This document shows positions 7,774 through 61,700 of a stretch of 64,000 nt of DNA, one piece after another (the stretch's first letter is position 1; the number at the start of each line of letters is the position of its first letter). The position numbers and the translations under genes were made by a program. The notes under the pieces are model-generated. The model saw only the letters and a program-made list of their open reading frames with translations, did no database searches and was not told the origin of the DNA. This stretch comes from Halichondria panicea. Lineage: Eukaryota; Porifera; Demospongiae; Suberitida; Halichondriidae. The stretch spans positions 1,798,001 through 1,862,000 of the forward strand of contig NC_087381.1 in assembly GCF_963675165.1 (NCBI RefSeq), written 5' to 3'.

Positions 7774-7968
7774 TATTGTACTGTGGTCAGTGGCATACCT
7801 TTCAGCTGCAGTGAAGTGCCCTAACTCCCACCCTAATTAACTGTCAAATCATTGCTTTTTTATAGTGCACACTGAATGAGATATTTATGGTTCCTGTGGG
7901 AAATTTATCACTGAGGCGGCAGCATAATTATGTATAATAAATTATGGTTTTAAGAGTATAGCTATATA

Positions 7969-8853: not shown

Positions 8854-9630
8854 TATACTGTATTCATATAAAATTTAGTACTGCAAATAACCACTATAAA
8901 AGGGATGTAAGTCCAAGGGCAGTGGGTGGTACTTTAGGTGAAAAATTACCCTCTTTGATTGATATTGCTGATACCACATCCTGGTAATATCTTTGATGTG
9001 TTCTGTCAGTAGACGATAAGAAATCTTAGAAGTTTATAGGGTTTATAATCTTCAGCATTGCTAATACTTTTGTTTTTCAGAATGACTTAATGATCTAATT
9101 GTAGTTATATATACGAGTAACAAACACTCCAGGACAGAAACAACACCTGTAGCTATACAGAATATTCTATATACGAAGTACGCCAGATCTCGCTCAAATT
9201 CATACCAGTCTACTAGTCATGCACACAACATCACAGTAGTTAGAACAAGATGGTACCAAGTTTGACATTCACAATTCATTATACTTATAGCGGGTAATTT
9301 TCGTGAAATGACGCAATGCAGTGCAGGCAGTTATGAAATTGTTTACTCACGAAAAGCTTAATATGTGGATGGGTGTAAAAATGGTTAAATGGGTGACTGG
9401 TTTTGTAGGCAGAAGCAGTCAAATTATAGCCAATTCATGAGAGCTCACCTCCAACAGCCCAAACCAGGTTTAGGAAAGTGACTGACTTCCACAGCAAGCA
9501 ACTCATTCTTGGCAATGCTTCTTACAAACTCAGTACAGCGTTACTGCACTGTAGGGTAATGACAATTCTGTCCGGAAATAGCCAATTTACCATGCACATG
9601 TGCACTAAACTATTGTAGAATCTCCTCTGT

Positions 9631-23000: not shown

Positions 23001-26000
23001 ACAGGGAAAAAGTTGTAAAAATATCCCTTAAATGTAAAATTTGTATACGATCAACATTCAGAGTGCAGTGCACGGTTAAACCCTATATTATATATGCAAT
23101 GTGATTTCTGGCCACAGAATGAAACCAGAGGAGATGAATTTGCTCTTGAATTGGTGTCCTATATTGGCTGTGCTATCTCCATCATCAGTCTTCTGCTTGC
23201 TGTCATCTTCTATCTTGTTCAAGGGTAAGAAATCATGGACATTTTAATCTGTGGACTATTATGTAGAGTTTCAGTATTGAAAGAGGTTCAGTATAATTAT
23301 AATAGATACCCTTTCCTCAGTAAAAAACTATACGTGCATGTGAGTTGTACTTCTGTGAAATAAAATTAATGCGGTCATGTTCAATGTTTTCTTGCTTTAT
23401 ACAGTAAAATGTAACGTCTCTCCTGCCTTACATTGTAGGAAGACGTTGTTTACTTCTGTCCACAACTTTGTTCATCTGAACCTCTGTATTTCACTGCTTC
23501 TATCCTATTCCGTTTTTGTTGCTGGAGTGAGTACTGCCGTCGGCGATACTGTGAGTCTAAGTTGTACATGTATATACAGTGATAAAAAGCACGAATCAAT
23601 TGATATTTTGGTTTTGGGTGTACTAATTTGTATTTGTGTGTACATATATAATAGGGATATCTATATATATATTGCAAATCTCCCTACCATACTCGTTCAA
23701 TTCAATTATCTCATTGAATTTCAACAAAATTTTACTATACAGTCATTATTATGTGTTAAAATCGTTGCACTATAATAATAGGTTGGATGTGCGTTTGTTG
23801 CTGCTCTACTGCACTACTTGTTCCTGTCCACTTTCTGCTGGATGTTGTGTGAGGGAGTGATGCTCTACCTGATGCTGGTGGTGGTGTTCAGTCAGCTTGC
23901 AAAGACATGGTGGTTCTTTCTACTCCTCGGTTATGGTGAGTGTACCGTATTACTGGAATATTAATTTTATGGATGAAAATCTTTACAAATGTGCCAAATC
24001 AGTAAAAAAATGGACCCTTTTGCGATCTAACTATTGCGTTCTGGCAAGGATCGTGTGTATTTACCAGTACTAATTTCGGTTTTGCGATTTTATTGAGCAA
24101 CTCTCGCAAAGTTTGCATAATTATGTTTGATACTCACAAAACAATCTAGTAATACGGCTATACCTTGGTATAAAAAGTCACAATTCATGAATATAATTAA
24201 ACCTCTATAATGAGGGTATAGGCATCAATATTATGGTTACATTCCATTCCAATAAGTGTACGTACGCATGGAGTGTAACATATAATTATGTCACCACTGT
24301 AACAACTGTAACACCAGTCACCACTGTAACAACTGTAACACATGTCACCACTGTAACACATGTAACCACTGTAACAACTGTAACATCTGTCAACATTGTA
24401 ACAACTGTAACAATTGTAACAACTGTAACAACTGTAACACTTGTCACCACTGTAACGCTAGTCACCACTGTAACAACTGTAACGTCTGTCAGCACTGTAA
24501 CAACTGTAACAACTGTAACACCAGTCACAACTGTAACACTTGTCACCACTGTAACAACTGCAACACCAGTCACAACTGTAACACTTGTCACCACTGTAAC
24601 AACTGTATCACCAGTCACAACTGTAACAACTGTAACACCAGTCACAACTGTAACACTTGTCACCACTGTAACAACTGTAACACCAGTCACAACTGTAACA
24701 ACTGTAACACTAGTCACAACTGTAACAACTGTAACGCTAGTCACCACTGTAACAAGTGTAACATCTGTCAACACTGTAACAACTGTAACACATGTCACCA
24801 ATGCAACACATGTCACCACTGTAACAACTGTAACACCAGTCACCACTGTAACAACTGTAGCACTTGTCACCACTGTAACAACTGTAACACATGTCACCAA
24901 TGCAACACATGTCACCACTGTAACGCTAGTCACCACTGTAACAACTGTAACACTTGTCACCACTGTAACAACTGTAACACATGTCACCAATGCAACACAT
25001 GTCACCACTGTAACGCTAGTCACCACTGTAACAACTGTAACACTTGTCACCACTGTAACACTAGTCACCACTGTAACAACTGTAACACTTGTCACCACTG
25101 TAACGCTAGTCACCACTGTAACAAGTGTAACATCTGTCAACACTGTAACAACTGTAACACATGTCACCAATGCAACACATGTCACCACTGTAACAACTGT
25201 AACACCAGTCACCACTGTAACAACTGTAACACCAGTCACCACTGTAACAACTGTAACACTTGTCACCACTGTAACACATGTCACCACTGTAACGCTAGTC
25301 ACCACTGTAACAACTGTAACACTAGTCACAACTGTAACAACTGTAACACTTGTCACCACTGTAACAACTGTAACACATGTCACCAATGCAACACATGTCA
25401 CCACTGTAACGCTAGTCACCACTGTAACAACCGTAACACATGTCACCACTGTAACAACTGTAACATCTGTCAGCACTGTAACAATTGTAACAACTGTAAC
25501 AACTGTAACACCAGTCACCACTGTAACAACTGTAACGCTAGTCACCACTGTAACAACTGTAACACTTGTCACCACTGTAACACTAGTCACAACTGTAACA
25601 ACTGTAACACCAGTCACCACTGTAACAACTGTAACACTTGTCACCACTGTAACACTAGTCACAACTGTAACAACTGTAACACTTGTCACCACTGTAACAA
25701 CTGTAACACTAGTCACCACTGTAACAACTGTAACACCAGTCACCACTGTAACAACTGTAACACTTGTCACCACTGTAACACTAGTCACAACTGTAACAAC
25801 TGTAACACTTGTCACCACTGTAACAACTGTAACATGTCACCAATGCAACACATGTCACCACTGTAACGCTAGTCACCAATGCAACACACGTCACCACTGT
25901 AACAACTGTAACACCAGCCACCACTGTAACACCAGTCACAACTGTAACAACTGTAGCACTTGTCACCACTGTAACACTAGTCACAGCTATAACAACTGTA

Positions 26001-29000
26001 ACACATGTCACCACTGTAACACTAGTCACAAATGTAACAACTGTCAACTGTAACACATGTCACCAATGCAACACATGTCACCACTGTAACAACTGTAACA
26101 CTAGTTACCACTGTAACAACTGTAACATCTGTCACCACTGTAACAACTGTAACACATGTCACCAATGCAACACATGTCACTACTGTAACACTTTAGTCTG
26201 GCACCACTATAGACTATAAGTACTATAAGAACTAGTGTTACAGTTGTTGCATGTGTTACAGTGGTGACAAGTGTTACAGTTGTGACTAGCGTTACAGATG
26301 TTACAGTGGTGGCATGTTGTTACAGTTGTGACTAGTGTTACAGTTGTTACAGTGGTGACTGGTGTTACAGTTGTTACAGTTGTGACTAGCGTTACAGTTG
26401 TTACAGTTGTGACAAGTGTTACAGTTGTTACAGTGGTGACAAGTGTTACAGTTGTTACAGTGGTGACTAGCGTTACAGTTGTTACAGTTGTGACTAGTGT
26501 TACAGTTGTTAGAGTGGTGACTAGCGTTACAGTTGTTACAGTTGTGATAAGTGTTACAGTTGTTACAGTGGTGACAAGTGTTACAGTTGTTACAGTGGTG
26601 ACTAGCGTTACAGTTGTTACAGTTGTGACTAGTGTTACAGTTGTTACAGTGGTGACTAGTGTTACAGTTGTTACAGTGGTGACTAGCGTTACAGTTGTTA
26701 CAGTGGTGACTAGTGTTACAGTTGTTACAGTGGTGACAAGTGTTACAATTGTTACAGTGGTGACTAGTGTTACAGTGGTGACAAGTGTTACAGTTATTAC
26801 AGTGGTGACTAGCGTTACAGTTGTTACAGTTGTGACAAGTGTTACAGTCGTTACAGTGGTGACATGTGTTACAGTTGTTATAGCTGTGACTAGTGTTACA
26901 GTGGTGACAAGTGTTACAATTGTTACAGTGGTGACTAGTGTTACAGTGGTGACAAGTGTTACAGTTGTTACAGTGGTGACTAGCGTTACAGTTGTTACAG
27001 TTGTGACTAGTGTTACAGTTGTTACAGTGGTGACAAGTGTTACAATTGTTACAGTGGTGACTAGTGTTACAGTGGTGACAAGTGTTACAGTTGTTACAGT
27101 GGTGACTAGCGTTACAGTTGTTACAGTTGTGACTAGTGTTACAGTTGTTAGAGTGGTGACAAGTGTTACAGTTGTTACAGTGGTGACAAGTGTTACAGTC
27201 GTTACAGTGGTGACATGTGTTACAGTTGTTATAGCTGTGACTAGTGTTACAGTTGTGACATGTGTTACAGTTGTTACAGTGGTGACAAGTGTTACAATTG
27301 TTACAGTGGTGACTAGTGTTACAGTTGTGACATGTGTTACAGTTGTTACAGCTGTGACTAGTGTTATAGTTGTTACAGTAGTCAAGTGTTACAGTTGTTA
27401 CAGTTATGACTAGTGTTACAGTGGTGACAAGTGTTACAGTTGTTACAGCGGTGACTAGCGTTACAGTTGTTACAGTGGTGACAAGTGTTACAGTTGTGAC
27501 TAGTGTTACAGTTGTTACTGTGGTGACAAGTGTTACAGTTGTTACAGTTGTTACAGTGGTGACAAGTGTTACCAGTTGTTACAGTGGTGACTAGCGTTAC
27601 AGTGGTGACAAGTGTTACAGTTGTTACAGTTGTTACAGTGGTGACAATAGTTACAGTTGTTACAGTTGTTACAGTGGTGAGTTGTGACTAGTGTTACAGT
27701 GGTGACAAGTGTTACAGTTGTTACAGTGGTGATAAGTGTTACAGTTGTTACAGTGGTGATAAGTGTTACAGTTGTTACAGTGGTGACTGGTGTTACAGTT
27801 GTTGCAGTTGTTACAGTGGTGATTGATGTTACATTAGTTACAGTAGTGACATAATTATATGTTACACTTAATTATGTGGAATGGAATGTAACCATAATAT
27901 TGATGTCATTATAGAGGCTTAATTATATTCATGAATTGTGACTTTTTATACCAAGGTATAGCCAGTAATACCAAGGCGTATAAAAGAAGAGAGGGCATGC
28001 AACTCCACTATCAGTACACGTAGCTAGCAGAGTTCAAATGTGGGCGGAGGAATGTGTGCATTTGCATAAAGTGCTAGAAATAGAAATTTCATTTCATGCA
28101 CAGTCATGCACATTCAACCGCCCACGTTTGAACTCTGCTCATATAGGAGTTGCATGCCCTCTCTTCTTTTATACGCCCTTGGTAATACGGTATATTTTGA
28201 ATGCTATACTTTATCAATACAGCCATCATTATTAGCTACAAGCAAGAATCAAACGATCAACCTAATAATGAATTGCTTGCCTCGTAGTGACTCCTATTCC
28301 AATAGTTGCTGTAACAGTGGGCATCAGGTGGCAGTACTATGAAACCCTTGATGTGTGAGTTTGCATGGCGTACAAATTGGTGTGTATAAAAGTAATATCC
28401 GCTTATATGAGTATCACAGCTATTGCTACGTATGTGCTATTGCCAGTAAATGTATTTAACAAAAAATATAAAAATTAATTCTTCAGCTGTTGGTTGCCAC
28501 TGGCAGATGGAACTATTTTCGGATTCATTGTACCAGTTCTTGTCATTATGTTGGTGAGGAAATATCTATTGTATTCGATATTGTGTGTGTGCCGAGAGGT
28601 ATCTGTAATAAAAATTAATATTGCTAGTATTATATCATTCTATGTTGATGTACTTCTCTTTCTATCTTTTTACAGATTAATTTTGTATTCATTGTCATTG
28701 CCCTGAGGGTGATTCTGAAGAACCAGAAAGAAAGAGCTGTAAGGACAGGCAGGAAAGACTCTCAGAGTGGAAAACAGAAAAGTATTGCAAGGTACGTACT
28801 TGCTCAGAGTCCATTGTAATTATAGATATACGTGCCATGCATGCATGCCGTACGGATATAAAAATGTACCAGGATTTTAGTTCGGGTCAGCTTAATCTCT
28901 ATATATAATTATACTGGTATGCATGGGCTAATAATAAATCTCTATGAATTGTATAATATTATTATGCTAATTTTCTACCATAATAATTAATCATAATTAT

Positions 29001-40738: not shown

Positions 40739-43700
40739 ATGTGGGTTCTTAGGCTCATTTGTTTTGAGGCCTTGCTTGTAGGCCAAGTCTTCTCTCAAGA
40801 ATTAGCTTGTGAAAGATTGACTGAAGGAGACCTGGGAACCACGGACTTGTCCTCAACTGGTTTGGTGGCTGCCGCTATTATCACAACAGTTGGTGATGGC
40901 ATTGTCGTCTCTACTCGTCTGATTCCTGGTAGCATACATATTGTGTGTGAAGCCCAGCACGAGATTCGAGAGAGATACAGATACACATCAGCTCTCTTTT
41001 CTTATGTCTGTACCACTACTGGTACCATGCTTGAACGCTGTGATAATACTACAGTCATCAGAGATCAACTAACTTTGATCTGTGACGCTCGTACCTGGTC
41101 TCTCTCTAGTTCTCTCTTCAGCAATCCTGAGTTTGCCCTAACATCAAATCCGTCGGCCAATTCGTCAACTTCACTAGCCTCTACTTGTTCATTGTGCGTC
41201 CCTCCAGACAATCCTTTGGTTGACTTTGTTGGCTTGGCGGTTTCAAACGTTACCCATTGTGTTGGTAAGTACTCTGTCATTTACCAGTGTAAACTTTTAC
41301 TGTTTTATTTAATAGAATGTAACTGTACTGTTGGTCTTGGACGCTGTTTTGGCCCAGATTTTAATGACCAGACTTGTTGCAACTACTTTAACGAGAGTAG
41401 TTGTGTTGAAAGCTGCCCTCTAGGTCAAGTATCTGGTACCAACTTTGTATGTGGTGAGTTTGATTAACATGAATTGATGGAATTAACATTTTTTGCAGGA
41501 TGTTCGACACTGAATGATGCAAATGGAGAGTTTTCGTATAGTAATGATACAGACATTGGTAGTGTGGCCACTCTTACGTGTAATAACGGTTATGAAGATA
41601 ACAACTCACCAGCTACTTGTACGCCATCTGCTGTCTGGACTACCACACCAATTTGTACATGTAAGTAGCTAGCATGTATGCTACTGCTATTAAGTCTATT
41701 CTCTTTCCAGCTCTCTGTATGGTGTTGCCCTTATTGGTTAATGGAGAGATTTCCTACACTAATCCCCCCAACAAACTAGGAGCTGGCACCAAAGCAAATT
41801 ACACTTGCATCCCAGGATTCCTGATAGATCCTGAGAATGGACATACAAGAACATGTCTGACTGGTGGAACGTGGTCAGGCACGAATTCATCATGCCGCGG
41901 TGAGTCTATACTGCATATCATCTGTGCTTTACAGTAAACCTGTGCTAATTATGCCTCGGTGCGCATGCGGATGCGCAAGCGAGGTTGGTGAGTTCTTATC
42001 TTGGTGTAGAGGGATTCTAGGCAAGCTAGACAAATTATCTAGAGACAGGCTCCTAGCTACAACTAGTTACAGACAAATTTACTTCACAATGTAGCTTAAA
42101 CAAATACTTAGATGGAGAAGCAAAACATCAACTACTGACAATACAGATAAAGTGAAGTGAGGCAAAGAAGCAACACCTTAAACGGTGGAGCAGGGCCCCA
42201 AAGGCTCGCACAACAACAAAGGGAGGAAGTGGAGCATTAACAATGAGAAAAGAGTATGGGATATCAAATCATGGTTAAGGTAGTAGTAAATACATTACGT
42301 ATGGTGCTAATAAGGTTCTAATTGGGGCGAGTACTGCAGAGAGCTCATGCAGCGACCAGATATCCGTCTGTCTGGAATTCATCCGTCTGTCTGTCGCTTG
42401 AAGCTTTTTAGCGTGACGATCTGTTTGTCTCACAGTTCAAAGCTTTTTAGCGTGCCGATCGCTGCAAGACATCTCAAGTAATAATAATTTTACTCGAATG
42501 CACTAGATGTAACTGATACAGCTCAACAACTAAGGCAATGAGGCAATGGCGTTGGGAACGCCATATCAAAGACACCATCTGCTGGCAAGGCTAAGGGAAG
42601 TTTGACAACAAGAAAGAGCATAAGACAGAAGCTCAGCTCATCTGTCATCTGTCTGAAGAGGAAGAAAGAACAATTAGAGAGACCTTTACGAAACAGCAAG
42701 TCGAACAAGTAACTACCCACTACTAATTCTCGTTGCTATAAGGCTCGCCCCACACAATGCTTCCAGCATTCCTCTAGTAAATGTTAATTAAAGTAAGATG
42801 CATTGAGCGTGAACAGAGGTATATGGTAGTGTGTTTGTGTGTGTGTCTGTGTAGACTGCTCAGATATGTATACAGCTGCTCAAGGATCAATGAAGTGCAA
42901 GTAAGAGTTTCTATAGACTTCTAGTCATGTTTTCTTGGATTTCAATTTGTGGATTTGCAAAATAATGCTTCGTTCTCAAGTTATGCCTAGTTTTGCTTAC
43001 TTGAAATGTTATCTTAGCCGAGTGCGTAGTAAAACTTGTCTATGGAGTGTTGCTATTCTACTTAGTAGTTAGCTCTGCACTAGAACGCTAGCTATTAGTA
43101 GCTGCAAGAGTGAGAAGAGAGCTGCAAGGCTCTACTGATATGATGCAGCAGCCATTAATTTTAGCTTAGACTTTGTACTTTTGGCATCCTTCAATCAATC
43201 ATGATCATTTCCCACTCTTTGAGTTTCCCTGTAATTACAGATGCAAAATTACTGTAAGAACATTATGAAATCTGGAATAGCTAGTAACTTTCTGTTATGT
43301 AGCTTAATTTGACACTGATCCATCGAGGCATTAGCACCCACGGTGCTTTCTTGTTTGTGGGTAAGAGAGCGATCTTTGTTACATGCAACTTTGCATTCCT
43401 GTTTTAGACAAATACGCCCTATACATTTAATTTTAATTGCTTGGTATGCTGTGTTGGTTTATAGAATTATAGCTAGTGTATAAGACAACCTAGAAAGCAT
43501 GCAGGTGTCACCCAATACTGTTCCAGTCAAATGGCCATAGATAACAGGAAACTGTGGGCGACTTATACATAAGTATATGTATATTGTATATGTATGCATT
43601 GCTCAAGAACACGCATCAGTTTTACTGCTGATCATATGATCTCCAGCCAGTCAACTTGGCTAAAAAAGGAGTCACATGATCAATTTAATACTTAATACAC

Positions 43701-46700
43701 ACTTAAGTGTGCTTTAAGTTGGGTTTAACAACATAATTATAATACAAGCAGATTGAATATGTACAGCTGAAAGTTGAATGTTATTGTCAACTTTGATGTG
43801 TTTGAGTCCACCCTTATTCGTCTTCGTTTCCAAAATCAACATATTCGAGATAAACACGACCTTTCTCATCAACTTTTTCGTGAATGCTTCAGATTGCAAT
43901 GTTCTGCAGACCAAAAACCTTATAGTAAGCAGTGTGACGCAAGGCCTTGTGTACCGAATTGCTGACTTGACCATAGCCTTACTTCTTCGTCTGGACAAAT
44001 ACGCTCAGCTTGCTTCAAAGACGTACCTAAGCCAGATCCCTGTAAGCGATTCATTTTAGCATCGAAGGTGCTTCGAAAATGTTCATATCTTTCATCAGTT
44101 GAACATAGTGGATTAATATCGTAGCGTTCCTTTTGGTTATGAAACAGCAAACCATTCGGTGGATACTCACTGCCATTCAGTTTGCACACCTCAAGCACAC
44201 ATTTTCCCATCCAGTAAGCGAGATTACGGCCTGGAGACTTATCCAGTAGTGGGGTTGTTGGTAGAACTCGAGACATGACATCAACAGGGGAAATCAGTCG
44301 AGAACATACCCAGTCAGTCCAGGTTTGCTTTCGTCTTGCCAGGGAAGCTTTAGATCGTATTTCCTTCTCCTTTGCATCAGTTACTGGATCTGTAAACCTA
44401 CTCAAACTCACCATTACATTTTAGCTAGCTACCAGCAACTGATTTAATGGATGAACAGGTACAAAACTGGTTTAACACGCACCATGAGGCTAGAGCTCAT
44501 GTGACAGCTAAATCCTTTAGAACACACCTAGCCAAGTCACGGCTGATGCATTTGGATGGCCTCTCGGTTAGATAATGCACTCGGCTGCGCCTCGAGCACC
44601 ACGTTAACCTCGAGGCCATCCTCGGTACACAGATTAAAACACTTAATCTTGGCTAGGTGTGTTCTAAATAATACTTCGATGTAAAACATATAGTGATATG
44701 TCTATAGATAAGAGTATGAGTGGCTGTAATAAACGCGGAACTGCATTTGCCAAACTCTGCGTCATATCATTGTCGTCACTGTTCAATAATGAGTAAACTG
44801 TTTATAGTGTTCTTGAACTGTACATGTGGTCTGTGATTTGTAGCACAACCTGTATCAGAAACTGCGCAATCATGTGCCGTTTTTGGGAAGTGTTGCTAAA
44901 ATAACAAATTTTTTTACTGTTCAACACTTTTACTCTTATAGCACCCATTTCTCTGAAAAATGTATCCAGCTATGACGTCACATTAACTATGATGTCATGA
45001 CGATGCTACTGCATGCCTTAAGCAAAGGGCTGTGGAAGTCAGTCACTTTCCTGAGCGTGGTTAGTATGCATGGGGTGCCAGATGTGTCAAAATTAAAAAA
45101 TTTCCCGTATTTATATATATCCACGTGTGTGTATTTATAAAACAAGATGGTTATGTATAGGATATACCACACCGAAGAGGAGGATATACACCCATATATC
45201 CTCCGCTACCATGGTTACTCCGAGGCGTAGCCGAGGGGTATGTAACCATAGTAGCAGAGGATATATAGGGTGCATATCCTCAGAGTAGGTGTGGCATATC
45301 TGACTTATATACCACGTGACTGCAGCACTATAAAAGAAACCTCCCCTAGCAACAATTCAATCCACGATGCAGACTACAAAAAGAGCAATGGCTATGCCGG
45401 ATTTCACGGCCGTCATAGAGCTAGCTAGTTAAGCAACATGTCGACTCCTACAGATGCTCAAGAGCTTCCTTGGTACAAGCGTTGACTATTCGACGTCCCT
45501 CACTGGAGTTGCAAGCTCTTTTTGGATAAAATGTATCTAAACCACACCCATGGACCCATGGAGGCTTAGCCATCTTGTTGGAGAGCAGCTTCCGTATTTC
45601 TGCCGTCGCTTTGAGTCTTAGTACCGTCAAGCATGGCTCCTTTCTCTTTGCTTACTTTCTTGAACAAATAAATAAAAACTTGAAAACGGTGCATACCTGG
45701 GGCTGTATGTTATTTTTCTATGTATCCTACAGCTGTTGACCAATGAGATCAATTAGTGGTGACGTAAGTGTAGTATCAATAGCGTAATAATAATTACAAA
45801 TCCATTCTCATGCAGATTTATATACCCATGCTCAGATTTATATATCCATATATACCCAGTGTCTAGATATTGATACATCTATGCATGTCCAAATTTATAT
45901 CCATAGCTATGCCCATCATTTATAAATCCCACACCCAGATTTCAATGATATCAGTCAAGTGATACTTATGTGATTAAGAGGTTGCAGCACATCAGAGGAG
46001 GCTGGAACCTCTTGACCTTAGCTAATTAGGTCACTAATTGGATTTTTCCAAACTTACTTCAAGCCTAAAATCGAAAAGACCCCCGGCCGCCCCTCCCCCC
46101 CCATGGGGTGCTGTTTGTGTCAAAACACAGTGTATAAAAACTGTATATGTTTAATATACACAAAAATCAACTCATGGTATCGGGCTCCCGATTTACTAAA
46201 TCGGGATCACAAATCGGGCTTACGCTTTAATAAATCAGGATCACGCTTTAGTAAATCGGGAGCCCAATTTAGTAAAGCGGGAGCCAAAGCGTGATCCCTA
46301 ATTTAAAAGCGTGATACCGATTTAGTAAATCGGGAGCTCCGATTTAGTAAAGTGTGATCCCGATTTAGTAAAGCGTGAGCCCAATAGTACAGTGAGTGGA
46401 TTTTAAACATGCAGTTTTTACACATTGTGTTTTGACACAAACGGGATCCCATACCCCCCCCCCCCTGTAAAATAACGTTTTAAGCTGACAGGCACTAAAA
46501 ACTATAGTAAGTCTGTAAGAGAAATCCAATTAGTGATGGGTTAACGAGAGTCTATACTGTGCTGTCATTACCGTATAACGGGTTGGGGGGAAATTTCATT
46601 TACCTTGAATGTGGAGATTTTCATGAGTAAATATTTCTTAATTGCCTGCACTGCATTGCATGCATGTGTTACAGTATTAATTTTCATGTCTTGCATATCA

Positions 46701-49700
46701 TAAAGGACAATCAAGACAATTAAGTGGAGACCTGAGGCTGGTAGACAGCTCAGGCCAAACAGAAGGCTGCTCTGGCAGACTGGAGGTCTATTACAGTGGA
46801 CAATGGGGGACAGTGTGTGATGACAGCTTCGGCCCAAATGCTACAAGAGTGGCTTGTCGTCAACTAGGGTTCTCAACCTACACTCAATTCGGAACAGTTG
46901 GAGCGCTAGGGTGAGTGAGTGCCTGTGTAAGCTCATCACTGAGTGATCGTGGTTAACAATGTAACTATATATCCTTTCTTACCATCGAATTGTCCATCTT
47001 GAAGAACCGCTTTATTGTAGAGTTTGTACAGTGTTAATGTTAATTAATAAGCTATGCAGCATAATGCACTTATGGTTTCTTCCAACCTTCATCAACAATG
47101 ATATATATATATATATATAGGAATCATTTATCCTCCATGCAGTCCTGCATGCATGCATGGTAGCACTGTACACTGTAATTTCTATAGCTGGCAATTGTGA
47201 TCATGACCTAAAAGTACATAATTATATAGTTTCTCTCAACCTTCATCATCCACTCCGATATGGGTGGACGAGCTTCGTTGCTTAGGAACTGAGAGCAGAC
47301 TCATTGATTGCCCTGCTAACGCTATCGGAGTTGAAGATTGCACCCATTCAGAAGATGTGGCCTTAATCTGCACTGAAAGTATTGAAAGTGAGTACGAATA
47401 GTGCGTATAGCTTACATTACTACACTCCGATTAGCCATCAATAATTCTATAGCCATGTAATGAATTGCGCTATTTTAGGACCTAAGTTTTAGGTCCTTCA
47501 AGTGGAGAGTCGACCTGAGGCTGGTAGACAGCTTAGGCCGAACAGGAGGCTCCTCTGGCAGACTGGAGGTCTATTACAGTGGACCATGAGGGACAGTGTG
47601 TGATGACAGCTTCGTCTCAAATAATGCCCTGCGCCCCTTTTTGTTTGTAAAATGTTAGCTCTGAACTGGCTCATTTCAGTGGCGGGTGCAGGAAATCTGA
47701 AAGGGTGGTCCCTAAAGGACAACGAGCCCAAAGGGCGAGTAGTCTTAATTCCTGCTCTTTTCCTGTGTCGTACGAGTAGACCAGAGTTAATAGCAAACAG
47801 CATAATATTTATAATTTTACTTGCCATTAATTTTTGTTTGTTGATACTAAGTCAGGGTACAAGTAATAGTTGTACCATGGATATCAAGGGTGTATTGGAT
47901 TTGTACTACCAAAGGTTAGTACAAACACAGTACACACACACAACTGCACGAGGTTAGTACAAACACAATACACACACAGATGTCCATGGTACAGGTAGCT
48001 TGTCGAACTACCGATACTTCTACACAAACACTGTACACAAAGTAACGTGACATCCTGTCAATTGCACGTGAGCAACTCGCAATTGATGACGTTTGTGCAA
48101 AGTTACGCAACGCACAGAAGTTGTTAATAGTGAGTAAAGAGTGCAAGTGAAGAGGATAAAATCGACTATTGTCTCTATTTTGATGATTTTTGTGAAGAGA
48201 TCGTCTCCTATCAGTGTGCAGTGAGCAGCTCCACAAGCTCTGAACGTTGAACGCGAACAACTAGCTAGAATTGTTCGATTACCACACCCCTAAAAACGTC
48301 ATAGTTAACATTTACTAGGAGATTACTAGTAAAAAATTTACAATACTTTATCACGTGCGAGTCATGTTACTTTGTGCACAGTGTTTGTGTAGAAGTATCA
48401 GTAGTTCAGACACTCTTCTCTTCTTATGTACTCTTGGTACTATGAATACTGTTGATTAGAACCAATCAGAAGCTGTTAATCCAACCCATTTACAACTGAG
48501 TAGTAGTAGTAAACACTCTTTGGTCCCTGCTGTGCATTGCACTGTGCATGTTTTGTGTTTTTTGCAGGATGTTCGACACTGAATGATACAAAAGGAGAGT
48601 TTTCGTATAGTAATGATACAGACATTGGTAGTGTGGCCACTCTTACGTGTAATAACGGTTATGAAGATAACAACTCACCAGCTACTTGTACGCCATCTGC
48701 TGTCTGGACTACCACACCAATTTGTACATGTAAGTAGCTAGCGTGTATGCTACTGCTATTAAGTCCATTCTTTCCAGCTCTCTGTATGGTGTTGCCCTTA
48801 TTGGTTAATGGAGAGATTTCCTACACTAATCCCCCCAACAAACTAGGAGCTGGCACCAAAGCAAATTACACTTGCATCCCAGGATTCCTGATAGATCCTG
48901 AGAATGGACATACAAGAACATGTCTGACTGGTGGAACGTGGTCAGGCACGAACGCAACATGCCGCGGTGAGTCTATACTGCATATGACCAGTGGCGGATC
49001 CAGGGGGAGATCCCAGGGTGCCACGGATCCCCCCTTTCAGTCTAGCTATTGTGGCTTTACTACAGCTACCAGCTAGCTATTTATCAGTTTTTTACTTTGA
49101 TTCAATGATTGTACCTGTGTATCAACTGCCAAAGGAGTGTTCAGGTTTATGGAATGCCATAGTGGACAATACTAGAGTTTGATTCCGATTGTTGATGGCG
49201 ATTATCGATTTCCTTTAAAGTGATCGATCATTGGAATCGATTCACACCATCGATTGCCATAGAGGAATCGATTGCAGGAATGGATTGCCACCATCGATTG
49301 TTGGAATCGATTGTAGGAATCGATTGTAGAGTTCGATTCCGATTGTCGGTTGCCTTCCCAGCTGTCATAGAGGAATCGATTCCTGCAATTGATTGCCACC
49401 ATCAATTGTCATCAATGAAACGATTCCCACAATGATTACAGGGATCGATTGCCACCATCGATTGTCAGAGGAATCGATTCCCACAATAGATTGTCATATA
49501 GAGGAATCGATGTGGTAATCGATCATAGGAATGGATTGTTGGAGTCGATTGCCCCTCTCGGCTCATTAAAAATTATGATTACAAAGTTGTTCATAGCACA
49601 TGCCTGTACAATTTACATTGATATAGCTAATTATATTATCTTCGCAATCGTTTTATCAACAATAATAGTGTTATATCAACCAAGGTATAGATCTATACGT

Positions 49701-52700
49701 ACATAGATCTGCATCCTACGATCGATGGTTGGTGACGATCGATCCCTCTACAATTGATGGTGGCAATCGATTCCAAAGATCGATTGCTGGGAAGGCAATA
49801 GACAATCGGAATCGACCACTCTACAATCGATTCCCGTAATCGGTTGTGGCAATCGATTCCAGTTCCTCTATGATAATCGATGGTGGCAATCGATTCCTGC
49901 AATCGATTCCTCTATGACAATCGATGGTGGCAATCGATTCCTGCAATCGATTCCTCTATGACAATCGATGGTGGGAATCGATTCCAACGATCGATCACTT
50001 GAAAGGAAATCGATAATCGCCATTAACAATCGGAATCAAACTCTAGTATTGTCCACTGTGGCATTCCATACAGGTTAGCCTAGGCTAGATAGTTGACTGT
50101 TCGTGGCAGCTAGCTAGCTCTACGCAAGTCTATTATGGGACTTCCCCTAGCTGAGTATGGGATTTTCCCTAGTCACATTGTGAGCAGAAGTAGACAATTA
50201 CGTCCTACTTGCAGCCAGAGGAGGTACGACATCTGCGTGTCAAAGGAAATGTTTTAGACACACATTCCTTAGGTCAAAGTTCAATATAATAAGCAATGTG
50301 TGTGTTAAGACACGCGGATGACACGCGGATGTCGTACCTCCTCTGACTTGCAGCTCTCTTCTCACTCTTGCAGCTACCAATAGCTAGCGTTCTAGTGCAT
50401 AGCTAACTAAGTAGAGTAGCAACACTCGGTGAACAAGTTTTGCTACGCACTCCTTGAAAAGACTGCAATGGCATTCCAATTCCAAGTAAGCAAAACTAGG
50501 CATATCGAGAAGGAAGCATTATTTTGCAAATCCACAAATTAAATCCAAGAAAACATGACTAGAAGCCTATAGAAACTCTTACTTGCACTTGATTGATCCT
50601 TGAGCAGCTGTAGCTGTCTTCACATGCACACAGACAGACATGCAGTTTTACAATCATTTCTATGTAAAACACCAATAAGAGTATGAGTGTTGAACTGCTG
50701 CATGTAATAAACGTGGAACCGCATTTGCCAAACTCTGCGTCATATCATTGTCGTCACTGTTCAATTAATGAGTGTTGTTGAGTAAACTGTTTATAGTGTT
50801 CTTGAACTGTACATGTGGTCTGTGGTTTGTAGCACACCTGTATCAGGAAATGCGTGTGCTGTTTCTGGGAAATGTTATAATTATACAAATTAGTCAACAC
50901 ACTTCTTACTCTTTTCTAGCACTCGAATGTACTCTAGCTAATGATGTCACGTTTAACTGAACTATAACGTCATGGCGATGCTACTGCATGCCTTAACGAA
51001 AGGACTATTATCTATAGACGGATAGTAATTTTAGCGTTTTCAGATTTTTCTCTGTTTTTAGGATACTAATTTGGGAGTCATGCAGATACAGCTGAACAGG
51101 GGCTTAGAATACTCTCAAAAGTACATTACATGTATACCAAGATTAGCTAGACTTACAGAGGAGTAGGAAGATGTTTTTGTAAGGGGGTGCTTTACAAATC
51201 TGGGGATCCGGGGGCTTGCCCCCGGAACATTTTGGCATTCTACATTCCCGGAGATTAATTCTGAGCAAATTTGGTATAAAATTATCAGTATCAAAATTTA
51301 AATAATTAATTCTAGTTTACCTGGATTAATTGTTCTGCCATATACTTTAAATCTATAGAATCTGTTAAGTGGGTATGAATATACAATAAGAAAAGATTGC
51401 ATTGTTATTGTACTTCGGAGGAATGTTTCAATCTTCGCAGTGAAGAAAACAAACGTTCGGCAGTTAGACAGCATGTCTATTTTAGGATCCAATTATTATA
51501 GTCTAGCTACCCTCTTTTAGTAGAGCTGTTCATGGAAACTTACCATTGATGTCAAAAATGAGAGGAGACTTGCTTGTTGCAGATTCGCAATGTGCTTGCT
51601 CTTTATAAGAGATATCTACGATATGGTTCATCTAGCTGACCTTTGTACTGTGTACGTAACTATGCTAGTATAGCTAGCTTAGTAACTAATAGCTAGCTAG
51701 CTAGCTAGCTGTTCTGAACTTCATGGAGGCAAGTAGGTAAGGTAGCTTGAGATAAGGGGGTGCTCCAACACCCTGAGCACCCGTGCTTCCTACGCCACTG
51801 CTATAGGGTATAGAGTATAGTTCAGCGGTGCTGTATGTAGCACTGTACTGGCTGGCAAGAATCTGCAAACACTGTATATGCATTGATAACTCGCCAGAAT
51901 AGAGGGGATCGCTGGGGATCGGGTTGGTTAATGAAAGGTTTAATTATTCAAAGTAGCCAGAGAGATACATAAATGTTGTCTTCAGTCTCCAATGACCATG
52001 CAACACCAGCTAGAAGTTTACATAGAAAATCCTTGTCAATTTCTGTGCCAGCTCAGCAAAAAAGTGGTTTACAGCATTTGATTGTGGGTTAGGCTATTTG
52101 GTTTTTAGCCCTTCAATTAGCTATAGACAAGGTATCCTAAAATTGGCTTCGAATTTTACATTTGCGAATAATGTACAATGTCATGTGAATGACGTTGTAA
52201 CGGATTGGAGTTATGCTAGCAACGGTTCAACAGCTTATATATAGGCTTCTAGCCACGTTCTCTTAAATTTTGATTCATCGGATTAGCTTCTTTCTCGTTT
52301 GACTCACAGTGAAGGCTGCTACATATATATAGCATCATCTGTTCGCACAACCTTAATTATGATGCCATATAATTATTTTAACACGTATCAATGAGTGAGG
52401 ACTCAGGTAGTCCAAGAATTTAGTTGTTTATCCATTTCGACGATGTCTCTTCTTTTTCCTTTGTCGTACGAGTAGACCAGAGTTAATAGCAAACAGCATA
52501 TAATTTCTAATTATATCTGCCATTTTGTTGTTGATACAAGGTCAGGGTACAAGTAGTGCAATCAGTTGCTTGCTGGTTGCTTTCAGGAATTAAATTGCCT
52601 GAAAGTTACCTGCATGATGTATTATAGTGGCAGTGGCCTGGCCTGTCATTATATAATTTTATGTACATGTGTCATTCTCTCTTCTTAGAGTTCGATGGCG

Positions 52701-55700
52701 GCTGTAAAGTAGATTTTGATTTGACCTGGAATATAGAGTGGCCAAACACACCCAGCGGCTCAACTAGCACACAGCAATGTCCTGGAGGGAACTCTGTCAC
52801 TGGTAATGTCCAATTGTTCACAATAATTATTTGAGGCATATGTGCATGATGCAAACATTGCTTGTATTATACTGACTGGATTGTTAGAGTATATAGGTGT
52901 CAAACAGTTGGCTACGGTCCTGTAAGTGATGTCAAAGTGTGTCTATTCGAGTACCTTAAGGTGACATATTTTCGCGAGTATTAATTTCTGCTATTTCTGC
53001 GAATGTAAAATCTCCTTAAAACCACTTGTGAGTACATAGAATCACTATAATTATGAATAATTTCACAACTTGAGTAGGCAGAATTTAATACCAGCAAAAT
53101 GAGCTAAACAGTGAAAACGCAAACAAATCTACCTGTGAAAATATGTCACCTTAAGATATATTTGTTGCCCAGTGAGTGGGCAGATCAAAGCAATCCAGTG
53201 CTCAGTATATGGCATGTTGCATCACTGCCATGGCTACCATATATTGCACTGCATTATATGGCATAATGCACTGGATTATATGCACTTGCACTGTGTGTAT
53301 ATGCAGTAGATTTCTTTAAGAGATCCGACTAGAAAAACATTTGCAATGTGAAAAATTGCTAGGATTGGCCAGGGGAACCACAAAAAAGCATGGGAACAAG
53401 AAATCAGACGAGAGCATAACTCCAATCTGTTACAACGTCAATCACATGTATACTGGTAGTTTTCCCATGTTTTCCCAGCCAATATGCCACGCAATTTTTA
53501 CTGGTGGAGTGATGACCAATCCCTATATATATTTATTATACATCCATTTTAGAATGTGGGGCACATAATTATGATGATTTGTGATGAATTGATGTTCCTA
53601 ATACATGCAGTGTTGAGCACAGGTACACACAGTCCATCCATGCGTAGTAACATGCACGGACCGTACTGGTGACTGCATGGAATGATGTGGTGGATGGAAG
53701 CTGATAGGTGGATTTGGAACACAGTCTAATATACTATGTATTGTACATGTTCATGACGTTGTAACGGATTGGAGTTATGCTCTCGTCTGATTTCTTGTTC
53801 CCACGCTTTTTTGTGGTTCCCCTGGCCAATCCTAGCAATTTTTCACATTGCAAATGTTTTTCTAGTCGGATTCCCTTTCTTTTTCAGTACAGTTTAGGTA
53901 TCATGACATGCATAAGTGGAACGTCAAGAGGCAGTACAAGAAGAGAAGACAGGACTAATCAGATATCTTCTCGAATATCTCTGGACTAATAATTTATTGC
54001 TTGATAATTAGACCCTATGTTGAATTTGCGAATCAGTATTAAATGACAGCCATTTTAAGAGCATGATATCTAGCCAGTGCATATAGCATGCCTGTCAGAG
54101 AAAGGGAGCTAGAGCTGAACAGTGTGAAGAAAAGGAACACCTCAGGCTCTGGAAAAGCACTGCTGCACTGATTTTAGGCGCACGGTTTATTAGCCACGCC
54201 TATCTATTATTATTGGCCACAACGCAATTGCTGAGTCATTAAAGATGGCGGAATTGTCTAGGTAAGAGAAATAAAGACTGAGAGGTCATCTGCCTCGTGG
54301 AAGCAATCTCAAATCTGAAGAAGCGCTTTGTAATCCAGGTTGTAGTCGTTTGGAAACCCTGTGCAGAATGTCCTGGAGATGGCTGTACTTGGAGTAAATG
54401 CTGGGCAAGAAACTTACTTACTTACTTACTTACTCACTTACTTAGTCAGTCAGACAAAGAGCGGTGAAACGTGGAAATAGTGCAATTTTTAAAATGAAAA
54501 TATTCATTCATTAAAATGTTTATGGATTATGAAATGAGAGATACAAAGAGAGAAAAGGCTAAATAAACTATCTGTTCAGCCAGTTTCTTGATGTGGCCTT
54601 TCCCTGCAGAGATAGAACAGTTTGAACATGAGTCAAAATAATTGAAATATTGCTAAACACGGGCAAACCCACTGCCAATCCTATGTAAAACCTACTGGTT
54701 ACTACCATATAATTGCACTGCATTATATGGCATAATGCACTGGATTATATGCACTTGGACTGTGTGTATATGCAGTAGATTTCTTTAAGAGATATCCATT
54801 TGGGACTTATGCCCCACCATCCCACCCAATACTCAGTTGGTCCCTTTTATAGGCTACTACCTTTACAACTACTAGTGGGAAGAAAACCTAAAAAATTTAC
54901 TATGGAATTCAGCAAAACTAATGAATAAACTAATGAATACACTAAATTCCTTCAAAACACATGTCTTTTATTACGATTTATATGACCAGTCAGACGAGTT
55001 TAACGTCATTGGGCAACAAGTTAGTTATTGCCGGCGCCCTCGTGCAACATGCCATATATTGCACTGGATGACATAATGCCCTCGGGCATTATATTGCTCC
55101 AGTGCAATATATGGCATGTTGCACTCTGGCTGGGCAATAACTAATACGTGTTGCATTACAGCAATGCATGTGACATAAACCGGCCACGTGCATGGTGTTA
55201 AGTTTGACTCCTATATTCCTCACTTGTTCTCTTGATTCTTTGTTATGCAGGCCAAGCAACAAGGCTCTGTAATAGTGACGGAGAATGGGAGGATCCGAAT
55301 GTATTAAGTTGTCAGCAAATGGAGTTTATTGAAATAGAATTCCAGGTGACACTATAATTTATTATGACAGTAATAATCGCTGGCGTACATTTGCATTCAT
55401 GTGGAAGGGGACTTAATAACTCAATCAGAGCATGACATTGTACTCGTGCATATATTTCGCGTTACCTTCATTCATTCAGAGTAGCTTTCATAGTACATGT
55501 ATCATCGTTACTGTATATGTATAATTATATACACACTGTTTTTCTAATGTTCTGTATAGATCTCTAATCTGTCTGACACCCTGGACTCTGCTACTATTGT
55601 AAAGAACACAGTAGTAATCACTCAGCAACTAGCAATGATCACTGTAGCTGATACCACTCCACTGCTGCCCTCCTCCCTCAACACGACTAATCAAGTGTTG

Positions 55701-58700
55701 ACTGCTGTTATAAAAGCCCTGGAACAAGTGGGAAATGATGCAGTAACCACAGAAACCAACAAGGTTAATACTAATTAAATGTATTCATAGTTGCAGTAAT
55801 ACTTAGTTTGTTTCGTACATAATGATATACAGCTTATTGTGGATGTCTTCAGTAATATCTTGGAGAGAAATAACTCAATAACTTGGATGGCTTTGCAAGA
55901 GGTAAATTTCATTCAGGCATAAATTAAATATAATTATATGTTAATTTGTGCGTCCCAGAATACAGGAGGTAGTCAAGTGCTTCTCAGCAACGCAGAGAGG
56001 TTTAGTGTACTGCTGGCTCACTCTCAGAGTGGAAATGACTCAACCAAGCCTGTCAGAATATCAAGGCCCAATATTGGTGAGCTTTGGTTTGTGTGTTATA
56101 CCGAAAACCACATGCATACGCATAAATCTTACATGCATGCATGCATATAAATTATAGAGAGTATAATTATTGATTTTGATTTAATCTGTTTGACATGCAG
56201 CGATTTCTGCTAAGCTGTATGATGGATCTCAAATGGATGAGCTCAAGAATGACCTAACCTTCCCTCAAAAGGAAGATTTGGCGAACTATTCCATTTCTGA
56301 ATCAGCGGTTGTTCCCGCTCAGATAAGTATTCCTCCAGGGTTTCTACAAGAAAGGCTGAGTCAGCAAAATGGTAATCGCTATTTCTACTATCACAGGCTC
56401 CCTCTAATACTAGCTTCTACTATTTCCTCGTAACATTATTTTATTTATTCATTGCATAAAAGTTGCCTGTCTATATGTGCATGATCATACGATGTATAAT
56501 ATATATAGGTATCTAATAGGGCACTAGAAATTCGTAGATGTGCATGTATATAGGCCTTTATTCGAGTGAGCGTTTGCAGTGCTCATTTTTATACACACAA
56601 TTGACATGCAGGTAGTAGACTACCGGTTACGTTCATCCTGCTTCAAAACCTAGAGGCTTTCCTTCCCTCCTCTGCTCGTGGACTAGGTGACAACACTGGA
56701 AGTGCTTCAGTAGTAATCTCGTCCCAGGTCGGAGATAGGGGCCTCACTGGTGCATCTGTGTCACTCAAAGAATCTCCGATCCTCTTAAATTTCAGTCTCC
56801 AATCTGTCCAAGTAAGTTGCTAGTATACTCACAGAGCTTGTGTGTTACTAACCGAGTAACTGCATATATATACTTAACACATAATTATAACATAACCCTG
56901 CCATTCATCTATAATTATTATGGCAGGTTTTGGGCCTGAGAATGGTCTTTGATTTCAGCTACATGATAGTTGTGATAGACCAGTGGCGTAGGAAGAGGGA
57001 GGCTGACGGGGCTAGAGCCTCCCCTTTTGTGCTCCATCAACTCCAACTTAGCTTAAAATACTGCGATCTGTCAATCTATTCTGCAGTACTGCAATAGTTA
57101 CTAAATGTGGGCAGGGCTATCTGATGCGCATGCTTACTGCTGAGGAAAAGTGATGACCAGATAAAATTCAATAACTATATGCTAGCCCTGCCCTTGATCA
57201 TTCTAGTCCATCACAATAGTGCATGTATATAAGCTTATCGTCAGTGTATTTAATGCAACTAACCAAGCTAATTATGACTATTGTACACGCAAGTGTTAAC
57301 TTATGGATAAAATCGTTCATGCAAGTATTACTAATCAATTCATGTACACACATTTCCGATTGTATTGTTGCTTACTTCAGGTTAATGAAAGTACAGTTCA
57401 GTATCATTGCGTTTTCTGGAATTTCTCAGATCCGTAAGTGAATTGCACACTAACAGTATAATTATATTGCCCTGATTAGCACACACTGTATACTCATGCA
57501 GTCTCAAACCTGGCTGCTAGAGTAGAATACTTTCTTCTCTCTAGCTATATAACTGTATAATTACGGTCTCAACTATTATACCGGATCATGGTATGTATCA
57601 TTTTTGGTTTTTCCAGTGTTGGTAACGGAGGATGGATTACTGATGGAGTGAACACTGTGGGGAATGCTTTAGACAGAGCAGGCAGGAGTACTGTCAATTG
57701 TACAAGTTCTCATCTAACCAGCTTTGCAGTACTCTTCACTGCTGTTAGAACGGTACCAAAATGGCTTTTATTGAAAAGAAAGGCAATTTTGGGAGGCCAA
57801 AAAGTCTAGTTTCCAAGCCCTTTTTTGTCATACAATCACATGTGATGTTCCACTTACAGGGAAAAAGTTACAAAAATATCCCTCAAATGTAAAATGTATA
57901 TACGATCAACATTCAGTGCAGTGCATGGTCTATATATATGCATGTGATTTCTGGCCACAGAATGAAACCAGAGGAGATGAATTTGCTCTTGAATTGGTGT
58001 CCTATATTGGCTGTACTATCTCTATCATCAGTCTTCTGCTTGCTGTCATCTTCTATCTTGTTCAAGGGTGAGAAATCATGGACATTTTAATTTGTGGACA
58101 ATTATGTAGAGTTTCAGTATTGAAAGAGGCTCGGTATAATTATAATAGAGACCCTTCCTCGTAAAAAAATATACGTGCATGTGAGTTGTACTTCAGTGAA
58201 CTAAAATTAATGTGGTCATGTTCAATGTTTTCTCGTTTTATACACAGTAAAAAATAACTTCCTTCCTGCCTTACATTGTAGGAAGACGTTGTTTACTTCC
58301 GTCCACAACTTTGTTCATCTGAACCTCTGTATTTCACTGCTTCTATCCTATTCCGTTTTTGTTGCTGGAGTGAGTACTGCCGTCGGCAATACTGTGAGTC
58401 TAAGTTGTACATGTATATACAGTGATAAAAAGCACCAATCAACTGTTTATATGGTTTTGGGTATACTAATTTGTATTTGTGTGTACATATATAATATAGG
58501 GATATCTATATATAATTATTGCCAATCCCCCTACCATACTCAATTATCTCATTGAATTTCAACAAAGTTTTACTATACAGTAATTATTATGACTTGTGTT
58601 AAAATCGTTGCACTATAATAATAGGTTGGATGTGCGTTTGTTGCTGCTCTACTGCACTACTTGCTCCTGTCAAGTTTCTGCTGGATGTTGTGTGAGGGAG

Positions 58701-61700
58701 TGATGCTCTACCTGATGTTGGTAGTGGTGTTCAGTCGGCTTGCAAAGACATGGTGGTTCTTTCTACTCCTCGGTTATGGTAAGTGTACCGTATTACTGGA
58801 ATATTTTGCTGGTGAAAATCTTTACGAATGTGCCAAATCAGCAAAAAAATTGACCCTTTGCGATCTAACTATTGCGTTCTGGCAAGGATCGTGTGTATTT
58901 ACCAGTACTAATTTCGGCTTTGCGATTTTATTGAGCAACTCTCGCAAAGTTTGCATAATTATGTTTGATACTCACAAAACATTCTAGTAATACGGTATAT
59001 TTTGAATGCATATACTTTATCAATACAGCCATCATAATTATAATTATTAGCTACAAGCAAGGATCAAACGATCAACCTAATAATGAATTGCTTGCCTCGT
59101 AGTGACTCCTATTCCAATAGTTGCTGTAACAGTGGGCATCAGGTGGCAGTACTATGAAACCCTTGATGTGTGAGTTTGCATGGCGTACAAATTGGTGTGT
59201 ATAAAAGTAATATCCGCTTATAATTATGAGTATCACAGGTATTGCTACGTATGAATTAAGTAAATGCTATTGCCAGTAAATGTATTTCTTTGTTTTAACG
59301 AAAAATATGAAAATTCTTCAGCTGTTGGCTGCCACGGACAGAAGGAACTATTTTCGGATTCATTGTGCCAGTTCTTGTCATTATGGTGGTGAGGAGATAT
59401 CTATAATTATGGATATAATTATTCGATATAATTATTGTGTGTGTTCCAAGAGGTATCTGTAATAAAAATTAAGCATAATGGAAGCACTGCAGGTGATGCT
59501 GATGCCTCGGTGGAGATTCCAAAGCTACATAACATAAAGCTACTAATAATACACATGATGAACATTTTTTTAATTTGCATACTGCTGCATGCAAACTCAA
59601 AGAGTGGGTAATGATCGACCATGATTGATGTTAAAAACGATCGATGCCAAAGTTCAAGTCTAGCTGCCATCAGAGCCTTGCACTACCAATAGCTAGCTAG
59701 CGTTCTAGTGCAGAGCTAACTATTAAAAGTAGAGTAGCAATACTCTGTAAACAAGTTTGGCTACGTGCTCTTCCGAAAAGACTGCAATGGCATTCCAAGT
59801 AAGCAAAACTAGGCATAACGTGAACAAAGCATTATTAATTTTGCAAATACACGAATTAAAATCCAAGTAAACATGACTAGAAGCCTATAGAAACTCTTAC
59901 TTGCACTTCATTGATCCTTGAGCATGCAGCTGTATAGCAGTCTACACACACATACAGACAGACAGACACACACACAAACACACTAGATCTACCGTATACC
60001 TCGCTTGCGCATGCGCACCGAGGCATAAAACTAGGGGATGCTGGAAGCATTATGTGGGGCGAGCCTATAGCCTTAGCAAAGACAAAGAAGTTGTAGCGAG
60101 TTGCTGTTTCCTTCGTTTCCTAAAGATCTCTCTAACTGCAATTCTCTTTTCCTCTTCAATTCGAACCTTTTGACGACAGACTAGCTTCTGTCTCATAGCT
60201 CCTACTTGTTGTTAAACTTCCTTAGCCTTGCCAGCAGATGGTCTCCTTGCAATGGCGTTCCCTTAGTTGTTGAGCTGTATCAGTTTCATCTTACTGTTTC
60301 GTAAAGGTCCTCTAACTGTTCTCTCTTCCTCTTCAGACAGACGACAGACGACAGACGAGCTGAGCTTCTGTCTCATTACCTCCTTTTTGTTGTCAAACTT
60401 CCCTTAGTCTTGCCAGCAGATGGTGTGTTTGATATCCCAACGCCATTGCCTCACTGCCTTAGTTGTTGAGCTGTATCAGTTTCATCCAGTGAGTTCGAGT
60501 AGAAATAAAAATTAATGTCTTGCAGCGATCATCATGCTACAAAGCTTTGAACTACAAGACAAACAGATCGTCACGCTAAAAAGCGTGCAAATGGAGCGAT
60601 TGTCATGCTAAAAAGCTTCAAGTGACATATAGACAGACAGACACTCAGACGGATATCCGGTCGCTGAGCTTTTCTCTACAGTACTCGAAACTATGGGACT
60701 CGCCTCAGGGCTCGCCCCAATTATTTATAATTATGCATGTTGATGTACTTCTCTTTTCACAGATTAATTTTGTATTCATTGTCATCGCCCTGAGGGTGAC
60801 TCTGAAGAACCTGAAAGGAAGAGCTGTAAGGACAGGCATGAAAGACTCTCAGAGTGGAAAACAGAAAAGTATTGCAAGGTACGTACTTGCTCAGAGTCCA
60901 TATAGATATAGATATACGTGCATGCACATGCATGCCGTATACGGATATAAATCTACCAGGATTTTAGTTCGGGTCAGCTTAATCTTACTCTCTGTCTATA
61001 TATAATTATACTGGTATGCATGGGCTAATAATAAATCTCTATGAATTGTAGATACTATATATAATGCTAATTTTCTACCGTAATAATGAATCATAATTAT
61101 GAGGTTAGTATTAATTCAGATCCATTTTACTGGCCACTGTTGTCCTTCTTCCTCTCCTTGGTCTAACTTGGCTATTTGGTCTCCTCGTGATCGTTGCTAC
61201 ATCGCCTGTCTTTGATTGGCTCTTCACAATACTCAATTCACTCCAGGTATAATTAGGTGACATAATTAGGTCGTAATTACGACATTCGTGCATGCATGCT
61301 TGAATGACCAATTTTTGCAGGGCTTGGCTATACTATTCTTTCATGTGATCAGGAGTGATAAGGTATACACAGGAAGGAGATTAATTGATACATGTGCAAA
61401 ATGAACTATTTACCACACTGTAAAAGTTAGGATAATTATAAGGAAGTGTGTACATGACACAAAGAGACTTATATTTAATCGTATGTCCAGTAAAGGTTAC
61501 ACGCATGCATGCTCGCATGTTATTGCTCTTTTATTATACTCTCTCTCTATATACACCTCCCCTTTCTCTATAGTAAGCTGGGAAGTATTCGTGTTCAATG
61601 CTATAATTATATGCATAATTATTATTATAGTAGAATATGACTGTATATGATTGTACCCATGCATGCATGCTATAATTATATTGTTTTTAGGTGTGGAGTA

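Follow-up and report, generated by a model that had tools for sequence, protein, structure and literature searches.

Adhesion G protein-coupled receptors (GPCRs) with SRCR domains in their extracellular part have been described in Amphimedon queenslandica, where two receptors, Aq712029 and Aq715659, are reported to carry multiple SRCR repeats (Krishnan et al. 2014, PMC4302439). The locus analysed here would share with them the adhesion 7TM region and an SRCR domain in the ectodomain, provided that the cassette described below is spliced. Nevertheless, in the account of that paper the SRCR repeats are multiple within the receptor, whereas here a single intronic domain lies between CCP domains and its inclusion is putative. 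Thus, the SRCR-bearing adhesion GPCR appears not to be new as a receptor type, since it is published for Amphimedon and several such receptors are apparent in the genome studied here.

Regarding the SRCR family itself, growth by tandem duplication has been reported for sponges (PMC10855680). The arrays of that report are clustered and recently duplicated, as are those found here, although the domains it describes mostly have three exons and ours have two. The third system to compare with is the shuffling of class 1-1 modules, which as set out by Patthy (2021, PMC8001218) concerns symmetric phase 1-1 extracellular modules and phase-1 introns. The same arrangement is found at our locus, but in contrast to those modules the intronic SRCR domain would be unfixed and is possibly unused. 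A literature search combining SRCR, exon shuffling and intron phase found nothing.

Class 1-1 exon shuffling is mostly inferred from finished genes. The locus that we describe lies in a window of 64,000 nucleotides of Halichondria panicea (NC_087381.1, positions 1,798,001 to 1,862,000 of the forward strand; positions below are those of the window unless another contig is named), and it keeps together a donor family, broken outer exons, a recipient intron and sister copies free of SRCR. Therefore, the first steps, namely duplication, decay of the partial exons and splicing of the module, could be measured in one species, provided that splicing is shown. We think it probable that the SRCR sequence in this intron is a duplicated gene fragment that arrived at the DNA level and that could be spliced in, its use being unproven.

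The SRCR domain and its host receptor

The intron between CCP2 and CCP3 of adhesion-GPCR copy 2 holds two exons that make up one complete SRCR domain. They measure 205 nt and 158 nt, 363 nt in total, and are open throughout; the pair is in phase 1 at entry and exit, has AG/GT at all four borders and lies on the strand of the host (+). Exon 1 (46706-46910, +) is entered in phase 1 and left in phase 2 and covers positions 3-46 of the Pfam SRCR profile (PF00530) with 51.2 bits, whereas exon 2 (47230-47387, +), which is left in phase 1, covers positions 56-100 with 41.0 bits, both scores being over the curated cut-off of 26.1 bits. Furthermore, the six cysteines of the local SRCR family are all at their usual positions. 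By its phases, the intronic SRCR is a symmetric class 1-1 module in a phase-1 host intron. The first-pass annotation had already placed two phase-1 SRCR exons of 363 nt on the host strand between CCP2 and CCP3, and Pfam, the borders and the frame agree with this.

The same annotation had called the exons splice-ready, which holds for the AG/GT borders but is overstated in view of the AAAG acceptor and of the damaged signal-peptide exon and dead half exon that flank the domain. Actually, the acceptor of exon 1 is ATAAAG, that is, AAAG instead of CAG. An AAAG acceptor is also found in the neighbouring SRCR gene (AAAAAG) and in three sampled genes; seven other sampled first exons of the same type have CAG. 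The donor region of exon 2 is 7 bp shorter than that of the neighbour's second SRCR domain, and the GTGAGT that remains is still a good donor.

The host is laid out as an N-terminal domain, CCP1-2, CCP3-4, an HRM-like piece, a GAIN-like stretch, a GPS and 7tm_2. The CCP1 exon (41499-41660, +; Sushi 23.9 bits) is followed by the CCP2 exon (41711-41899, +; 38.4 bits), which ends in phase 1. Beyond the SRCR exons, the CCP3 exon (48568-48729, +; 23.1 bits) begins in phase 1 and is a near copy of CCP1, and the CCP4 exon (48778-48966, +; 37.3 bits) is a near copy of CCP2. CCP3-CCP4 (48558-48993) duplicates CCP1-CCP2 (41489-41926) with 97.3% identity, a difference of 2.7% between the pairs, and the copy is near-precise, taking in little beyond its splice signals. 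The HRM-like piece, the GAIN-like stretch, the GPS and the first part of the 7TM region follow at 52691-58780 (+), with exons matched to those of copies 0 and 1. In Pfam the GPS of copy 2 reached 24.8 bits (cut-off 22.5) and 7tm_2 53.4 bits for 58625-58987 (cut-off 20.6); the HRM-like piece remained at 20.5 bits, below its cut-off of 26.2, and the three GAIN-like pieces, named by eye, had no Pfam match. In copy 2 the 7tm_2 region is thus preceded by a GPS, as in an adhesion GPCR.

All the host borders that we checked are in phase 1, that is, the end of the N-terminal domain, both sides of CCP1 and of CCP2, the entry of CCP3, the exit of CCP4 and the entry of HRM. Therefore, a complete SRCR module of whatever origin would keep the frame when inserted in this orientation, and the phase match of the SRCR domain is unsurprising and needs no special explanation.

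Copies 0 and 1 have no CCP match (in copy 1, by tblastn at E<=1e-3). The SRCR exons had been said to be lacking from copy 1, which is borne out by tblastn without a match at E<=1e-3, although this copy has no CCP match either. A fragment of a third receptor copy is found at 1172-1815, with a truncated CCP1 and a CCP2 with a frame change, and the alignment with it suggests that copy 1 lost its CCP pair by a deletion near 14809/14821.

The larger fragment and its SRCR relatives

The two SRCR exons are the intact middle of a bigger colinear fragment, 45029-47627, which consists of a damaged signal-peptide exon, an intron 1 with repeats, both exons of SRCR1 and half of an SRCR2 exon, in this order. 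Judged by its homology, the source of this fragment is the 5' region of a receptor gene with an SRCR array. The extent given in the first-pass annotation was right for the two exons and missed this larger context, with broken partial exons on both sides.

On the left, the remnant of the signal-peptide exon (45029-45062, +; LWKSVTFLS core, label given by eye) is 88-97% identical to the exon upstream of five SRCR genes, with E down to 5e-11, whereas 50 shuffles of the intron gave no match at E<1e-4. A 27-nt core occurs exactly in the remnant and with two mismatches in the neighbour's copy of the signal-peptide exon (9468-9494), where 0 are expected by chance. According to the frame check and the alignment, the remnant has kept neither the family's start codons nor its phase-1 GTGAG donor. 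Intron 1 contains an interspersed repeat of 629 nt (45152-45780) with copies elsewhere of up to 91% identity, at least 39 of them full or near-full among the best 40 of 760 candidates scored, and an inverted-repeat element (46103-46452; inverted self-match of 73% over 350 nt) for which no second copy was found among the scored candidates. Next to the SRCR exons there is a remnant of the intron 1 of an SRCR gene (46560-46676, +); its best match, at C5 ~727.7 kb, has 76.5% identity over 132 columns, and shorter pieces of it match two further SRCR genes. Upstream DNA was read for five genes, and in three of them parts of intron 1 match 46560-46684; the signal-peptide exon, the intron-1 pieces and SRCR exon 1 follow one another there as they do in the fragment. 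In six alignments the similarity next to SRCR exon 1 dies out at 46657-46678, so that the fragment would seem to begin there if the upstream parts of the genes were not considered. The neighbour's upstream DNA also matches 44703-44939, in three inverted and non-colinear pieces, and there is one short out-of-order match at 46538-46556 (E 0.004); both are presumably unrelated repeats.

On the right, the homology to SRCR genes continues through exon 2 and the next intron into the first exon of the second domain, of which a dead half is left (47498-47627, +), with a 5-bp insertion, an in-frame TGA and no donor. The break is sharp, as 50 of the 68 alignments that pass 47560 stop at 47627 or 47628 and none extends further; when five overlapping loci were left out, 41 of 55 stopped at 47627-47628. 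The alignments thus point to a right-hand cut inside an exon. The left-hand cut apparently also lies in an exon or close to one, but is less certain, because the matching stretch is just 34 nt and because of the inverted matches at 44703-44939 to the neighbour's upstream DNA. Downstream of the fragment, the same intron holds an interspersed inverted-repeat element (48001-48440) of up to 96% identity, with at least 39 other copies among the best 40 of 415 candidates scored.

A retrocopy (processed pseudogene) was ruled out, because the intron between exons 1 and 2 and the one that follows exon 2 align with the introns of SRCR genes; retained introns point to duplication at the DNA level.

Fragments of this kind are unsurprising in a genome with at least 213 SRCR profile matches, many of them on the same contig. 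This number is a lower bound, as the best 150 of 1364 candidates were scored in the search of the 131-Mb genome, and so is the number of DNA matches to the fragment, at least 184 including itself (40 of 109 candidates scored). The related SRCR gene that had been reported nearby is real. It is a receptor gene on the minus strand, which runs from a signal-peptide exon to a third SRCR domain (3757-9506, -), with three two-exon SRCR domains from about 7168 to 3757 and, past SRCR3, a hydrophobic segment and a Pro-rich tail to about 2.4 kb. The tail of this receptor is a long Pro/Gln-rich repeat of QPPPAQ type (2440-3014, -).

To compare the domains, first and second SRCR exons were searched with tblastn at E<=1e-6, which gave 57 and 56 respectively. 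Before pairing, three of the first exons, including the dead half exon, and two of the second were set aside, and the 54 pairs used come from the window and from 20 further stretches of the genome. The nearest relative of the intronic SRCR among the 53 other domains compared lies at C5 ~724.3 kb and is 7.8% different, whereas the neighbour's first SRCR domain is 9.8% different. Therefore, the neighbour at 2.4-9.5 kb is a relative, as the first-pass annotation had proposed, but neither the closest one among these 53 nor the favoured donor. In the tree of the 54 domains, 26 of the 51 inner branches have a support under 80, and the insert falls into no supported group that comprises half the rows or fewer. 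The age of the arrival is bounded from above only.

Signs of use and rival explanations

The comparison of Ka/Ks that had been proposed as a check was run over the 54 SRCR domains and is non-discriminating. The insert and its nearest relative have a pairwise NG86 Ka/Ks of 0.70 (dN 0.075, dS 0.107), and the median of the insert is 0.69 over its 23 pairs with dS 0.15-0.45, versus 0.64 over 1059 other pairs, which makes it the 21st highest of the 51 rows with pairs in this dS range. Because the sampled family itself is near 0.64, Ka/Ks is uninformative on use versus decay. Against the eight nearest relatives the insert has 4 private replacement changes and 2 silent ones (the other 53 rows sum to 175 and 134), counts which are too few to use in the case of the insert.

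Regarding the protein, of the 67 positions that the family conserves the insert has rare residues at five (G15E, S17C, D41A, A42T and L76V); with this number it shares seventh place among the 54 rows, whose median is 2. S17C is a seventh cysteine, at a position where none of 52 relatives has one. We take this position to be C1 as defined for group B SRCR domains; the partner that C1 usually has is absent here. These five residues, including the extra cysteine, lean against use.

On the other hand, the central 363 nt have no frameshift, stop or lost splice dinucleotide, and the damage is confined to the two outer pieces, the inner domain being spared. A simple neutral simulation, whose indel rates were chosen by us, left the 363 nt intact at a divergence of 3.9% with a probability of about 0.08-0.17, which fell to 0.02-0.06 when the divergence was set to 6%. 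Furthermore, with 0.052 the insert has a shorter terminal branch than is typical of the family (median 0.072). Intactness and a short terminal branch could both mean selection on a spliced product, although intactness is weak evidence of use, and we consider the evidence on use as a whole, which comes from the sequence, weak and mixed.

These observations also bear on whether the shuffling is already complete, that is, whether the copy-2 mRNA regularly contains the SRCR cassette and selection keeps a CCP-CCP-SRCR-CCP-CCP receptor. The intact frame, the phase 1-1, the splice sites and the strand would be expected in this case, as would a whole inner domain between broken partial exons, and a paralogue on C9, described below, has two same-strand SRCR domains between its N-terminal domain and 7TM. 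We nevertheless consider completed shuffling unlikely, given the five rare residues with their extra cysteine, the AAAG acceptor and a Ka/Ks that is no lower than that of the family. Far less probable is a nested mini-gene for a secreted single-SRCR protein, made of the signal-peptide remnant and SRCR1 and ending a few codons past exon 2. In-frame ATGs do lie by the remnant, at 44997 and 45003, a phase-1 GT comes after it at 45064, and there is a stop shortly past exon 2 if the exon-2 donor is ignored; but these ATGs are non-homologous to the family's start, the weak GT is a poor donor, the 629-nt repeat would lie within the intron of the mini-gene and neither AATAAA nor ATTAAA occurs from SRCR exon 2 to CCP3.

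Within the fragment and past its end, this intron has repeats that could be read as traces of a transposable element that captured the SRCR exons and carried them in. However, they do not bracket the fragment, since two are inside it and one starts 373 nt past its end, and for either interspersed element the alignments of the 39 copies listed are confined to the element and leave out the flanking query bases. The queries of the repeat searches stopped at 46690 and began at 47620, the SRCR exons being outside both, and no element bracketing 45029-47627 was found among the 40 candidates scored per search. We therefore regard the capture as slightly less probable still than the mini-gene. The least probable explanation of all is an artefact of assembly or haplotype that joined SRCR to GPCR sequence. 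SRCR and GPCR genes are indeed multicopy, with similar ones nearby, but none of the 53 other domains compared is less than 7.8% different from the intronic SRCR, which rules out a misplaced copy of one of these.

According to the explanation that we prefer, the duplicated gene fragment, a 5' fragment of an SRCR gene would have arrived in the CCP2-CCP3 intron by duplication at the DNA level, with its introns retained, and an SRCR family that is dense and has duplicated recently may have favoured this arrival, together with the repeats on this chromosome. Since then the partial outer exons would have broken, while the lone complete class 1-1 domain would have kept its frame and splice signals. 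If the domain is expressed at all, the GPCR transcript would most likely include it as an optional in-frame cassette and at low levels, and selection would most likely not have fixed it yet. Exon shuffling in progress, as the locus had been described at first, is then a fair hypothesis for the anatomy (a complete class 1-1 domain that has splice sites, runs in the direction of the host and is followed by no canonical poly(A) signal before CCP3), but the function is unproven and the receptor type would not be new.

We hold it possible, though rather doubtful, that the cassette is already included in part of the copy-2 transcripts, with CCP4 and CCP2-SRCR-CCP2 forms in one individual. If so, this would be exon shuffling seen before fixation: the dead outer exons of the donor would still document the event, and the chemistry of the SRCR domain would be changed by its new extra cysteine.

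Related receptors and other features of the window

A paralogue of the host is found at C9 ~2476.7-2445.9 kb (minus), with all its domains on one strand over about 31 kb: an N-terminal domain, two SRCR, Ig-like, FN3, EGF and somatomedin-B domains, and then a GPS and a 7tm_2 exon. It resembles the host in its N-terminal domain, which is of the same family (40% identity), and in its 7tm_2 exon, which differs at 2 of 52 residues. However, its SRCR exons are distant (45-48% identity) and stand among Ig-like, FN3, EGF and somatomedin-B domains, and no CCP match was found in the 10 kb that hold its N-terminal domain. SRCR sequence followed by 7tm_2 on the same strand is also found on C11 and on C2 near 7.01 Mb, and a third such pair, by coordinates only, on C2 near 6.95 Mb. 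From their order and strand, we infer that these SRCR-7tm_2 arrays on C9, C11 and C2 are each one gene.

Furthermore, two paralogues on C2 have the N-terminal domain and CCP1-2. In one of these two (L015, C2:2791801-2801700) the N-terminal domain and the CCP pair are followed by a single hydrophobic segment, seen by eye, and the stretch has no match to the HRM, GAIN, GPS or TM exons of the host. The domain mixes found on C9, C11 and C2, together with copies 0 and 1 without a CCP match, indicate that domain exchange is common in the family of the host receptor. Therefore, the SRCR locus is one more instance of it, and its interest comes mainly from the outer parts that are still visible.

Some other features of the window are worth recording. 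Beside the fragment of the third receptor copy, 20-24 nt at 1912-1935 (-) resemble the SRCR signal-peptide exon (E 0.002-0.02). In copy 1, an open frame of 507 residues (17227-18750, +) sits between the N-terminal domain and the HRM-like piece; it consists of Ser/Thr/Pro-rich repeats with a 60-bp period in 15.8 copies and is possibly a mucin-like stalk exon. Finally, 24289-27850 is a minisatellite with units of 27, 45 and 72 bp, whose halves are inverted relative to each other.
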